Part shown: piece after piece, positions 12,502-15,471 of the stretch
How positions within the stretch are numbered: position 1 is the stretch's first letter
How the letters are laid out: the number at the start of each line of letters is the position of its first letter
NCBI RefSeq assembly: GCF_023169885.1
Contig: NZ_AP025516.1
Location: forward strand, 310,001 to 374,000
Length of the DNA stretch: 64,000 nt
Source: Desulfofustis limnaeus
GTDB taxonomy: Bacteria; Desulfobacterota; Desulfobulbia; Desulfobulbales; Desulfocapsaceae
Direction: 5' to 3'
Program-made: the position numbers and the translations under genes
Notes under the pieces: model-generated
Database searches by the model: none
Seen by the model: the letters and a program-made list of their open reading frames with translations, nothing else
What the model was told of the DNA's origin: nothing

Positions 12502-12888
12502 ATGGGAAGCTCAGGTTCGGGTAACTTTTCAGATTATCCTGGTACGAAGGCCGTAGAAGTCGCTGGAGAAGGATCAGGTATGGCGGGGGGCGAGAGCGGC
12601 ATAGACAAGTGCAAGCAGGCATTTCACGTGCTACTTGACGATGTTGGAAATTGTGACTTCTATTCGCAGTTTAATAATGTTCCGGCTGTTGGTGACCAGC
12701 TAGGTATTATTTTTGACATGAAGCGCGTCTTCGCGGTTGATGTGAATGGTGTTAAAGTTGGTGCTCTTCCCACATCATTCAATTATCTCGTGGCATGCCT
12801 GAAAGACGGCGTGACTTATGTCGGATTAGTGAGTTCCTCCGCATCGTCACCCGTCCCCACTTTAGCTGCAGACTTCGTACCAAACTAA
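12502..12888 (+). CDS. Small Gly/Ser-rich-start protein of a QueC-type cassette (QatB-like position)
   Basis: I place the start at the ATG at 12502, preceded by GGGAG; a longer GTG-started form is unlikely. The 128-aa product begins MGSSGSGNFSDYPG, has a second Gly-rich stretch to about residue 33, and then a compact beta-rich domain (PAVGDQLGIIFDMKRVFAVD, LPTSFNYLVACL). After Met removal the N-terminus would be Gly. QatB of the Qat defence system also starts with Met-Gly and a Ser/Thr/Gly-rich tail next to a QueC-like enzyme, and protein N-terminal deazaguanine attachment has been reported for the QueC-like enzyme of type IV CBASS. This protein may be such an acceptor. It is first in a tight operon, with 2 bases to the next gene. 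Confidence 0.7.
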   Translation: MGSSGSGNFSDYPGTKAVEVAGEGSGMAGGESGIDKCKQAFHVLLDDVGNCDFYSQFNNVPAVGDQLGIIFDMKRVFAVDVNGVKVGALPTSFNYLVACLKDGVTYVGLVSSSASSPVPTLAADFVPN

Positions 12889-12890
12889 TC

Positions 12891-14222
12891 ATGACCAACA
12901 CTGGTCCTATCCTAGTTGTTGGGGAGCTTATTGTTGACTACACGCTCCCTCATCATGCTGCAAAGTGCAAGCTTCGCTTAGGTGGCGTCGGTCACGCCGC
13001 GAGGGGTTTATGGGCTGCAGGCATCGAATACTCAGTTGCAGTTTTCTGCCCTCAATACCTTGTTAACGAAGCAAAGCGTTATCTTGCTGAATTCGGATGC
13101 AAAGAGTTCCTCTGGCTTGGTGACGTTGTGGGTGCACCTAACGTTATCGTTATTAGTGATGTGTCGGAAGTTTCGCAGCAAGGCTACGAAGACTTGATGC
13201 GAGATACCAAGGTAGTGAAATTCCACTCCCCGCCGCCGGATCTCGACGCTTACCAGAGAGTTGTGGTCTTTCCTGGCAGATTCGATATCAATAAACTTGC
13301 TAAGGTGTTCGCTGAGGATGCGCGGTTTTCCTTTGACATCGCTTATGATATAGAGAATCTGTCGTCGCTCGATGCATTCAGAGGCCGTGTGGAAATTATC
13401 GCTATCTCGACGTCGTCCACACTGTTCATGGAGCTTGGAAATAGTGATGTTGAAGGACTTCTGGATGCAATTAAGATGGTTTCACCAGAGGGGCTCATTC
13501 TAAAGGAAAATCGTGGCGGCAGCCGACTCTTTGACATTCGGGCTGGTACCGTAGAAGAGATTCCTGCAACGTTGGGCCATACGGTCAATTCAGTTGGCGT
13601 TGGGGATGTCTATTTCAGCGTCATGGTGGGGCTTTCTCACAAAGGATGGACTGAAGCGGCGTGGCGAGGCTGCCAGGCTGCCACGGCATATTCTCAGTCG
13701 ACATTTCCCGACGACATAAAACGTGATGTGCGGCGCGGGTTTAGACTTTCACTGAAAGAGTTGCAAGCACTCGGTGGGACAGTGCTCCCTTGGCACGACC
13801 GCCAAAGCTACTCAATCTATCTTGCGGGTCCAGACTTCTCGTACGTCGAAAAGCAGGAAATTGAGCGTGTTGTGGATTGCCTCACGTACCACAACTTCAG
13901 GGTGCGACGCCCCGTCATGGAGAATGGAGAATTAAAGCGACCCGCAAACGAGGGCGACCTGCGTCATATGTATCATATGGACTGTCAGCTGTTAAAGAAG
14001 TGCGATGCCGTCTTCGCAGTTCCTCTCAAACGCGATCCTGGCACTCTCGTTGAAATCGGCATGGCAATCCAGATGGGCAAACCGGTCATCACCTACGATC
14101 CTAAGAATGAAAATGAGAACACAATGGTGGTCGCCGGAAGTTCGGTGTACTCAGCAGATCTCGATACGTGCCTCAACGGTACTTTCGACGCAATTGCTAA
14201 ACTGAGGGCTGAATCGCGATGA
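12891..14222 (+). CDS. PfkB-family sugar/nucleoside kinase fused to nucleoside 2-deoxyribosyltransferase
   Basis: This is a 443-aa two-domain enzyme. Residues 1 to about 300 are a PfkB/ribokinase fold. It has the early LRLGGVGHAARGL sugar-site segment and the C-terminal anion-hole/catalytic motif in NSVGVGDVYFSVMVG, which keeps the catalytic Asp of GxGD. Residues about 310-443 are a nucleoside 2-deoxyribosyltransferase-like domain: YSIYLAGPDFSYVEKQEIERV at its start, DCQLLKKCDAVFAVP, and RDPGTLVEIGMAIQMGKPVITY, with the family's nucleophilic Glu in GTLVEIG. The natural reading is base exchange or release followed by sugar phosphorylation, or the reverse. It overlaps the QueC-like gene by 4 bases. 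The fusion is unusual and suggests deazaguanine nucleoside handling, which is inference. Confidence 0.85.
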   Translation: MTNTGPILVVGELIVDYTLPHHAAKCKLRLGGVGHAARGLWAAGIEYSVAVFCPQYLVNEAKRYLAEFGCKEFLWLGDVVGAPNVIVISDVSEVSQQGYEDLMRDTKVVKFHSPPPDLDAYQRVVVFPGRFDINKLAKVFAEDARFSFDIAYDIENLSSLDAFRGRVEIIAISTSSTLFMELGNSDVEGLLDAIKMVSPEGLILKENRGGSRLFDIRAGTVEEIPATLGHTVNSVGVGDVYFSVMVGLSHKGWTEAAWRGCQAATAYSQSTFPDDIKRDVRRGFRLSLKELQALGGTVLPWHDRQSYSIYLAGPDFSYVEKQEIERVVDCLTYHNFRVRRPVMENGELKRPANEGDLRHMYHMDCQLLKKCDAVFAVPLKRDPGTLVEIGMAIQMGKPVITYDPKNENENTMVVAGSSVYSADLDTCLNGTFDAIAKLRAESR

Positions 14223-14839
14223 AAAAAGCGCTTCTTATGGCCTCTGGCGGCCTCGACTCAACAACTGTTGGATACCAGCTAGCGGCAGCAGGGGTGGAGG
14301 TGGTTCCAATTTTTTTTGACTACGGGCAACATTGCATAGACGTTGAGTGGAGTCGTGTAAATGAGGTGCTCCCTCCCCATATGCAGCGGCCCGAACGTTT
14401 CAATATATCGGATCTCTTCCGTGGATCGAAATCTCGGTTGATACTCGAAGCTGATCTCTGGACTGAGGAGGTAAAGGATGACGATTTGTACATCCCTTAT
14501 AGAACAATGCTGTTTTTCGCCGCTGCGGCAGCGCGTGCGCAGACTGTTGGCATCCTAGATGTTTATACTGGTTTCATAAACAGCAATCACGCTAGAGAGA
14601 TTGACTGTACTGCCGCGTTTATGAATAGCCTTGACGGACTTACATCGAGTATTGGTCCTGTTCGCTTTCACTCGCCGTTCCGCCATTCGTCCAAGGCTGA
14701 AGTAGCAAAGGTAGCTGCTGAACTTGGCGTGCCTATCGGGCGAACATACTCGTGCCAGGCGTCTTCACAGTTTCCGTGCGGTGCTTGCCCAAACTGTGTC
14801 GAACGCCTGAACGCATTGAAAGAGGCTAAGTTGGTATGA
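14219..14839 (+). CDS. QueC-like ATP-dependent 7-cyano-7-deazaguanine synthase homologue
   Basis: The 206-aa protein has the PP-loop SGGLDSTT at residues 9-16, the conserved PYRTMLFFAAAAARA segment, a metal/substrate region (FINSNHAREID, FHSPFRHSSKAEV), and a C-terminal zinc site (CQASSQFPCGACPNC). Housekeeping QueC converts 7-carboxy-7-deazaguanine to preQ0 with ATP and ammonia. No queD, queE, queF or tgt lies nearby, and this copy is embedded in a prophage cargo operon, which points to a specialised paralogue like QatC or the type IV CBASS enzyme. It overlaps both neighbours by 4 bases, a sign of strict co-translation. Confidence 0.85.
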   Translation: MKKALLMASGGLDSTTVGYQLAAAGVEVVPIFFDYGQHCIDVEWSRVNEVLPPHMQRPERFNISDLFRGSKSRLILEADLWTEEVKDDDLYIPYRTMLFFAAAAARAQTVGILDVYTGFINSNHAREIDCTAAFMNSLDGLTSSIGPVRFHSPFRHSSKAEVAKVAAELGVPIGRTYSCQASSQFPCGACPNCVERLNALKEAKLV

Positions 14840-15471
14840 CAATTTTTGCCATAGAGGTGTTGCAGGTAGCGCGCCGCATTGCCAACCGCGCGAAGGATGA
14901 AGGTGTGCTCTTTGAGAAGAAACATCCGCGCGTTACTTGTGAACACCTGGGAGCCGTTCTCGCAGACTCGATTCTCCAAGCAGGACTCAATTACATGACG
15001 GTTGTACGTCCGCGAGTGCTAGCCATACTGCAGATGAATCCGAGTCGCCATACGATTTCCTCATTGGTTTCTTTGATTCAGGTTGGAGATACCGGTGCAT
15101 TCCTGAACTGGCGTCATCACGAGAAGATAAGCCGCTTTGAGGCCCTGGTGTTTTTTCTGCAGAGGTCGGGTGTCGAGGATATACAAGATTTTCGTGCAGG
15201 TCTAATATCTAAGGAATTCTGCGACGCAATTCAAACCGTCAAAGGTATTGGTCCTAAAACGGTCGATTATATGGCGTGCCTTGTCGGAATTGATTCCATT
15301 GCTGTTGATCGCCATGTCCGTACGTTTGCGAAAACGGTTGGTGTCGAGAATGGCGACTACCACTTTCTGCGCGCGTCATTTTGCTGCGCTGCAGACCTTC
15401 TCTCGCTTCCACGCCGCGATTTCGACGCCTGGCTCTGGCGTAGGGCCGCGGCACCGGCTCGGGTACATTAG
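14836..15471 (+). CDS. HhH-GPD DNA glycosylase/lyase-like protein
   Basis: The 211-aa protein carries the helix-hairpin-helix signature VKGIGPKTVDYMACL followed by SIAVDRHVRTF. The Lys in GPKT and the Asp in VDRH align with the catalytic pair of endonuclease III and OGG enzymes, so both glycosylase and AP-lyase chemistry may be kept. No C-terminal iron-sulphur cysteine cluster is visible, unlike Nth. OGG-type glycosylases accompany QueC-like enzymes in type IV CBASS, so the pairing is meaningful. The short tail (RRAAAPARVH) may be shifted from the native end. Last gene of the four-gene unit. Confidence 0.8.
   Translation: MTIFAIEVLQVARRIANRAKDEGVLFEKKHPRVTCEHLGAVLADSILQAGLNYMTVVRPRVLAILQMNPSRHTISSLVSLIQVGDTGAFLNWRHHEKISRFEALVFFLQRSGVEDIQDFRAGLISKEFCDAIQTVKGIGPKTVDYMACLVGIDSIAVDRHVRTFAKTVGVENGDYHFLRASFCCAADLLSLPRRDFDAWLWRRAAAPARVH

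Follow-up and report, generated by a model that had tools for sequence, protein, structure and literature searches.

A four-gene cassette with a QueC-family enzyme

A 64,000-nucleotide stretch of the Desulfofustis limnaeus genome, here called the window, carries within a Mu-like prophage a cassette of four tightly packed genes (positions 12502–15471) built around a QueC-family enzyme. All four open reading frames (ORFs) lie on the plus strand and run from ATG to a stop codon, with two bases between genes 1 and 2 and four-base overlaps (ATGA) at the 2/3 and 3/4 junctions, the same packing that an earlier interpretation of this DNA, made without database searches (the sequence-only reading), had described. 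Gene 1 (12502–12888) encodes a 128-amino-acid protein with an N-terminal MGSSGSGNFSDY tail, a linker modelled at low confidence and a HIRAN-like domain at about residues 36–128, and is our proposed acceptor of a modification. Gene 2 (12891–14222; 443 amino acids) joins a ribokinase/PfkB-fold kinase (residues 2–295) to a nucleoside 2-deoxyribosyltransferase domain (residues 309–408), gene 3 (14219–14839; 206 amino acids) encodes a PP-loop enzyme of the QueC family, and gene 4 (14836–15471; 211 amino acids) encodes an HhH-GPD/OGG-like glycosylase. We find that the cassette is a real, selected and widely scattered system which in plan is related to the type IV cyclic-oligonucleotide-based anti-phage signalling system (CBASS) and to Qat, and which is a member of neither.

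Recurrence across phyla

A scan that used the gene 2 alignment and two peptide patterns and covered 84,980 species genomes yielded at least 78 loci, a lower bound, whose products share 28–81% identity with gene 2 and which span the Pseudomonadota, Bacteroidota, Bacillota, Planctomycetota, Acidobacteriota and Cloacimonadota, a TM6 bacterium and a member of the Acholeplasmataceae. Gene 2 was the only query behind these loci, and profiles for each gene of the cassette show the full set of four in the same order and on one strand at 70 of the 78 listed loci, in line with the sequence-only reading of a distinct, conserved QueC/PfkB–deoxyribosyltransferase/glycosylase cassette that should recur in unrelated genomes. 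The exceptions comprise four Bacillota loci (L088 and L091–L093) in which the profile search found no OGG gene, three of them (L088, L091 and L092, in the last at 8971–10950) with QueC fused to the PfkB–deoxyribosyltransferase as a single ORF, and four others (L031, L069, L078 and L096) with genes absent or interrupted, L031 sitting at a contig end. Each of the four genes has a ratio of nonsynonymous to synonymous substitution rates (dN/dS) of 0.05–0.17, measured on three pairs with some dS values saturated; these ratios, together with the recurrence of the ordered set, rule out chance ORFs.

The cassette also occurs on plasmids and is rare. By tblastn against plasmid records, the four-gene arrangement was recovered from Cupriavidus necator pENH92, from a record of Proteus mirabilis and from a plasmid of Neotabrizicola, and scans of IMG/VR with genes 2, 3 and 1 returned 15, 3 and 15 mutually overlapping loci. 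Gene 2 has matches in 5 of 297 genomes of the window's phylum, near full length only in the window's genome and one other, and blastn found no DNA of the cassette type in 5,426 Escherichia coli genomes. Among the matches listed, the closest relatives of gene 2 come from a gammaproteobacterium (81%) and a Deltaproteobacteria metagenome-assembled genome (79%). A queuosine operon was rejected as an explanation, as the sequence-only reading required: host QueD, QueE and tRNA-guanine transglycosylase (TGT), used as queries, had no relatives in the ORFs of 118 loci. Host QueC as query matched 111 ORFs in the same loci, and the five that were listed are cassette QueC genes.

A conserved tail on a HIRAN-like protein

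The product of gene 1 begins with the motif MGS[ST]GSGxFSDY, followed by a disordered linker and then by the HIRAN-like fold. In an alignment of 72 rows (the window's copy and 71 others retained after thinning), the mean majority share is 0.82 over residues 1–12 (12502–12537), the most conserved part of the protein, compared with 0.41 over residues 13–35 and 0.52 over residues 36–128. Met1, Gly2, Cys37, Pro61, Gly87, Pro90, Cys99 and Gly108 are invariant in the 72 copies, and Ser3, Gly5, Gly7, Asp11 and Tyr12 are conserved in at least 90% of them. Four loci gave no gene 1 start by pattern; three of these (L032, L035 and L094) still hold an MG start and one (L021) is without an in-frame motif, and a fifth locus (L096) had no gene 1.

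The structure model of gene 1 is of low confidence up to about residue 36 and of high confidence from there on. Its ordered part resembles the HIRAN domain of HLTF in Foldseek (E value 1.6e-4) and in VIA comparisons (4xzg, Z 9.9, root-mean-square deviation 5.6 over 90 residues; 6kcs, Z 9.8, deviation 1.9 over 83 residues), and further matches were to Lactobacillus lp_0118 (Z 12.0) and Rad5 (Z 8.9). Gene 1 is thus predicted to adopt a HIRAN fold from about residue 36 onwards, a link drawn from fold comparison only, as Pfam gave no match and a PDB sequence search nothing useful. HIRAN domains bind the 3' ends of single-stranded DNA. HamB of the Hachiman system was considered as a relative and set aside, the match being weak (Foldseek E value 0.49; VIA Z 7.9) and under the level at which the tool is telling. 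The MGS[ST]GSG tail and the HIRAN-like domain together give gene 1 an acceptor-like character, which makes conjugation of a base to a protein likely, beyond the handling of free bases alone. The sequence-only reading had assigned gene 1 no role, and on this point its proposed logic changes.

Families and residues of the three enzymes

Gene 2 matches the nucleoside 2-deoxyribosyltransferase family in Pfam (PF05014, E value 2.3e-16). PfkB was not detected in it by Pfam; the kinase half of the proposed fusion is instead indicated by the model, in which residues 2–295 form a ribokinase fold (mean predicted local distance difference test score 94.5) with Z values of up to 25.6 against ribokinases and nucleoside kinases, and by a ribokinase match in a profile search, which is weak (E value 0.0045). 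The fusion put forward from the sequence therefore stands by family for its transferase half and by fold and this weak profile for its kinase half. Asp239 of the GVGD motif (13605–13607) and Glu388 of GTLVEIG (14052–14054) are invariant in 65 rows, and we take them to be the catalytic positions of PfkB kinases and deoxyribosyltransferases, respectively.

Gene 3 belongs to Pfam family PF06508 (E value 1.1e-30). The SGG and DS of its SGGLDS PP-loop (14243–14260) are identical in 84 of 84 QueC-like rows, as are Tyr35, Gln37 and Glu43; Arg95, Asp129 and four zinc-binding cysteines are kept in all 83 rows with letters at those positions. At EIDC (14597–14608), the counterpart of the canonical QueC motif YPDC, the Asp is retained and Glu stands in the place of the Tyr in 83 of 83 rows, one of the 84 being gapped. 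Retention of the Asp, as in Cap9 of type IV CBASS, makes a guanine-like base plausible, but with the loss of the Tyr the pocket is altered. Gene 3 falls short of the canonical QueC model (TIGR00364, 92.8 against 150.3 bits), and the host genome, a single contig of 4,232,141 bases, encodes elsewhere a QueC of its own that scores higher.

Gene 4 is recognized by the PADLOC OGG model PDLC00910 (E value 7.8e-7); it has no Pfam match, its NCBIfam matches all lie below cut-off, and a PDB profile search ranked designed TIM barrels over weak glycosylase matches. Lys141 in the helix-hairpin-helix (15256–15258) and Asp158 (15307–15309) are present in 79 of 79 rows, presumably as the lyase residue and the glycosylase acid. 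Putative catalytic residues are accordingly kept in genes 2, 3 and 4, and QueC and OGG, in genes 3 and 4, are the only PADLOC models that match the cassette.

Genomic setting and neighbouring genes

Left of the cassette lie Mu-like head and packaging genes (major head protein, maturation protease, portal and terminase; 1597–9329, minus strand), and to its right genes for DUF3164, a MuB-like ATPase and a MuA transposase (22865–27955, minus strand; the last two at 24715–27955), confirming the carriage in a prophage that the sequence had suggested. Upstream of the cassette, the ORF at 10411–11310 encodes a member of the phage endonuclease family phrog_4225 (E value 8.7e-95). Three IS66 transposase ORFs with identical translations (16603–18255, 18629–20281 and 61184–62836) also occur in the window, the first two inverted and adjoining the cassette, with the nearest beginning 1.1 kb downstream of it. 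A protein with the JetD_C domain of Wadjet is encoded at 41672–42574 (E value 1.7e-7).

Neighbours were compared at 71 loci, that is, the 78 listed less the near-duplicates L025, L039, L040, L045, L051, L053 and L071, which supplied 133 nearest genes of at least 100 amino acids; for the control, 140 genes were taken from 20 arbitrary regions (19 in hosts of other loci and one in the window's genome), and 133 of them were used, the seven genes of the last region being omitted. The leading PADLOC families among the neighbours were dGTPase (9), PDC-S07 (5) and Septu parts (2 each), and the leading Pfam families HD (8), NUDIX (5) and DUF6441 (4); dGTPase and NUDIX were absent from the first 25 families listed for the control proteins. 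In total 253 PADLOC models were matched among neighbours and 41 in the control, a difference inflated by redundancy among the models. The nine dGTPases, grouped by blastp and confirmed by family in five (L022, L058, L086, L093 and L052), occupy varied sides and orientations; L036, L038 and L066, whose hosts we take to be related Hyphomicrobiales, share one placement. A NUDIX gene lies directly upstream of gene 1 at the four Bacillota loci without OGG, and a dGTPase gene downstream of QueC at one of them, Paenibacillus L093. The dGTPase and NUDIX neighbours together suggest a guanine-type base. Downstream of another Bacillota cassette (L092, 12070–14841) we observed a gene for a KAP-family NTPase, the family of QatA.

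A sister type, PF06508 Cluster 4

A QueC-like gene next to a PfkB–PF05014 gene is already in print as Cluster 4 of PF06508, interpreted there as purine salvage (PMC13329287). The claim that the cassette is undescribed holds in part: the QueC-family cluster and its PfkB–PF05014 pairing are published for this sister type, and the cassette itself was not found described in a search of open-licence literature. Like the cassette, the sister type has a QueC-like gene beside a PfkB–deoxyribosyltransferase fusion, a homologue of gene 1 (hhalign probability 96.8, E value 2e-10) and, at part of its loci, an OGG or dGTPase gene nearby. Its cysteine motif differs, reading CH(x)5CxxCxGCxK as opposed to C(x)7CxxCxxC in the cassette (8 rows), and in L009 and L010 it fits that published for Cluster 4; the fourth gene is nitroreductase-like at some loci (PF00881 in L176; by eye in L009 and L010, where Pfam gave no match). 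The sister QueC-like proteins form a separate clade, with supports of 100/99 compared with 98/92 for the window's type, in a tree where the canonical branch is thin (3 of 15 canonical QueC loci passed the motif filter) and Cap9 is one long row of unsure placement. Although gene 2 provides the adjacent PfkB–PF05014 gene, the different cysteine motif and the separate clade led us to reject membership of Cluster 4.

Read at 12 loci, the sister gene 1 starts with MSG (8), MGG (3) or MSS (1), the L176 row entering the alignment with a start that lies two codons before its MSG. Ten plasmid loci of the sister type (L008–L010 and L176–L182) include five with an OGG-type gene nearby (L010, L176 and L178 by annotation, L177 and L182 by Pfam), two with a dGTPase gene (L010 and L181) and three with a DNA adenine methylase gene (L010, L176 and L182); the others show none of the three in the stretch seen. 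The sister type occurs in 22 of the 5,426 E. coli genomes, with 18 matches covering at least 80% of the query, and in two of these genomes ssb1 and yjcB flank the module, which sits behind integrases and is accompanied by genes annotated as OGG, Dam and an anti-phage dGTPase. By eye, the archaeal gene 1 proteins of this type (L008, 6442–7530; L179, 2652–3287) seemingly carry the folded domain in duplicate, preceded by acidic or Gly-rich tails, and on a Synechocystis plasmid (L182, 1–2240) the sister type sits beside genes annotated as multiubiquitin and ThiF family.

A proposed mechanism and its alternatives

According to PMC13279940, Cap9 of type IV CBASS joins 7-carboxy-7-deazaguanine to Gly2 of a CD-NTase (cGAS/DncV-like nucleotidyltransferase) starting with MGGS, and PMC11996544 describes Cap10, a member of the TGT family, as binding the modified tip. 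By analogy, gene 3, using ATP, would activate a guanine-type base and join it to Gly2 of gene 1 after removal of the initiator Met; gene 1, as a HIRAN-domain protein, would be expected to bind DNA ends; gene 2 might stand in for Cap10, binding the base or processing it further through glycosyl transfer and phosphorylation; and gene 4 may act on bases in DNA, yielding the base itself or else DNA ends for the tagged protein to act on, with the outcome that invading DNA would be recognized or blocked. That the cassette is in this sense a third QueC-family anti-phage architecture, beside type IV CBASS and Qat, is a proposition we regard as evenly balanced between right and wrong, the conjugation, the nature of the base, the roles of genes 2 and 4 and the defence function being what we infer. 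Conjugation to protein appears to us the best supported of the readings considered, and a function in defence is likely.

Several observations weigh against this interpretation. The cassette contains no obvious effector or killing domain, and the PADLOC counts around it are single-gene matches rather than whole systems, and the five matches to PDC-S07 probably come from the five NUDIX proteins (one was checked). For gene 1, the choice of start favoured Gly or Ser at position 2, though not the remainder of the motif, and 9 of 12 sister-type loci, by the starts read, have Ser at position 2, so that Gly2 is not universal. For gene 3, a search of the PDB gave 57 bits for Cap9 and 55–63 bits for canonical QueC, and scores this close do not show any particular nearness to Cap9; the PADLOC CBASS QueC model gives it 81.2 bits and the true Cap9 of a type IV CBASS locus (L156) 228.1 bits; and Glu127 replaces the Tyr that in Cap9 stacks on the base. 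The CBASS OGG model fails to recognize two of the sister-type OGG proteins, and gene 2 had no match in 50,697 phage records.

The identity of the base is the point on which the host genomes, most of them drafts, bear directly. TGT is present in 38 of 38 hosts and a QueD-family gene in 29, and the remaining nine, with neither QueD nor a QueC of canonical level, add to the evidence against a simple parallel with Cap9. No QueE-type match in these nine exceeded 31 bits, the search model TIGR03365 covering one QueE type, and one of them (G331) holds a QueE-like fragment and so may reflect an assembly gap. Nine Bacteroidota hosts (G320–G328) have QueD and no canonical-level QueC; in one such family 0 of 26 genomes exceed the QueC cut-off, the hosts resembling their relatives in this respect. 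QueD occurs in 281 of 297 genomes of the window's phylum, a background drawn from another group than the alphaproteobacterial hosts without QueD. The nine hosts without either gene indicate that the cassette is independent of the full pathway and that the base of Cap9 may not be made there, so the base is probably not simply 7-carboxy-7-deazaguanine; as donor, this compound, and with it the deazaguanine of the sequence-only reading, is doubtful.

The alternative that fares best, in our judgement an unlikely one, is nucleoside salvage or cleaning of the nucleotide pool, in which the gene 2 fusion would recycle (deoxy)nucleosides, OGG and NUDIX enzymes would remove damaged guanine, the QueC-like enzyme would modify a free base and gene 1 would be an accessory DNA-binding protein. 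The dGTPase, NUDIX and OGG neighbours fit such a guanine theme, and the sister QueC cluster was published as purine salvage (PMC13329287). Carriage on prophage, plasmid and island in scattered hosts argues against it, as does the annotation of the dGTPase beside the sister type as anti-phage, and salvage offers no obvious reason for the Gly/Ser N-terminus of gene 1 to be conserved. A variant of conjugation, which we rate as improbable and place next, retains gene 1 as acceptor and replaces the deazaguanine: the QueC-like enzyme would use ordinary or oxidized guanine, which the glycosylase would release from DNA or dGTPase and the deoxyribosyltransferase from dGTP, and join it to the N-terminus of the HIRAN protein, on which the fusion would build a deoxynucleotide, yielding a protein-linked nucleotide that caps or marks the 3' ends of invader DNA.

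Deazaguanylation of precisely the type IV CBASS kind, with 7-carboxy-7-deazaguanine taken up from outside where the host pathway is absent, seems more improbable still: the PP-loop, Tyr35, Gln37, Glu43, Arg95, Asp129 and zinc cysteines are all kept and 29 of 38 hosts have a QueD-family gene, yet the base-stacking Tyr is a Glu and nine hosts have neither QueD nor canonical-level QueC. Those nine hosts also count against the logic of the sequence-only reading, to which we now give little credence, namely that gene 3 makes a deazaguanine, gene 2 moves it on or off a sugar and phosphorylates it and the glycosylase recognizes it in DNA, gene 1 staying unmodified. The QueC residues, the base-pocket Asp and the deoxyribosyltransferase and glycosylase residues are conserved as that logic would predict, but it leaves the gene 1 tail unexplained, and in the defence systems related to it the N-terminus of a protein is the known or proposed target (PMC13279940). 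Equally little credence attaches to a module serving the prophage, which would alter or shield the DNA of the prophage itself or counter the defences of the host, and would not protect the host: the window copy does lie inside a Mu-like prophage and others on IMG/VR contigs, but the Cupriavidus and Neotabrizicola plasmid copies have no annotated phage genes within about 8 kb, the absence of gene 2 from the phage records counts here too, and the sister type sits with a dGTPase gene in an integrase island.

Should the conjugation reading with gene 1 as acceptor be true, a tail led by a small residue as base acceptor would become a general rule open to test, exemplified by a third, widespread architecture, and the published cluster interpreted as purine salvage would need re-reading. 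A small acceptor with a recognizable DNA-binding fold would offer a simple system for studying the function of the base, hosts that lack the QueD/QueC pathway raise the question of an alternative base directly, and the sister type in complete E. coli genomes puts laboratory tests within reach.

Comparison with known systems

Protein modification by QueC-family enzymes has so far been associated with type IV CBASS, where the chemistry is established, and with Qat, where it is unresolved. In PMC13279940, Gly2 of both the MGGS motif of the CBASS CD-NTase and the MGTS motif of QatB is needed for defence, the N-terminal Gly of QatB being essential, and the reaction of QatC is left unresolved. We consider it probable that QatC, like Cap9, modifies the Gly-led tail of its partner. 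The cassette shares with Qat a QueC-family enzyme and a partner whose disordered N-terminus starts with MG[ST]S. It differs in that QatC has about 400 amino acids and other motifs (PMC13329287), as opposed to the 206 amino acids of gene 3, which scores 12.3 bits against an NCBIfam QatC cut-off of 280, and in that QatB is all-helical (PMC13279940). By Pfam, the QatA KAP NTPase and the QatD TatD nuclease are absent from the four genes, and Qat membership was rejected on the size and score of gene 3 and on these two absences. With the HIRAN domains of HLTF and Rad5, gene 1 shares its predicted fold from about residue 36, and it differs from them in having no attached helicase and an added Gly/Ser tail.

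For type IV CBASS, the reference locus L156 gave PADLOC E values of 7.9e-121 for the cyclase, 3.2e-101 for TGT and 2.3e-68 for QueC, and 283 bits for OGG; its cyclase matches Pfam SMODS (1.6e-10) and has the N-terminus MGGGGGKSSGSR, and the locus also encodes an unidentified protein of 206 amino acids. Neither Pfam nor PADLOC detects a CD-NTase or a TGT among the four genes, the upstream ORF at 10411–11310 belongs to the phage endonuclease family and that at 11359–11760 has no Pfam match, two shorter upstream ORFs lying outside this search; membership of type IV CBASS was rejected on the lack of a CD-NTase and a TGT-like Cap10. The sequence-only reading is upheld in noting that the cassette lacks a CD-NTase, QatA and TatD, and equally in its claim that two parts are kin to type IV CBASS. 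The cassette has a HIRAN-like protein in place of the CD-NTase, a PfkB–deoxyribosyltransferase in place of TGT and no recognized effector. In Cap9 a Tyr stacks on the base and an Asp reads its Watson–Crick edge (PMC13279940), and it is the Asp that gene 3 retains. In common with L156, the cassette encodes QueC-family and OGG-family proteins, the latter related closely enough for the cassette OGG profile to find the L156 OGG at 4.3e-6; a base-exchange glycosyltransferase is present in both, of a different family in the cassette, and both have a partner protein with a Gly/Ser-rich N-terminus, the gene 1 motif resembling MGGS as well as the MGTS of QatB.

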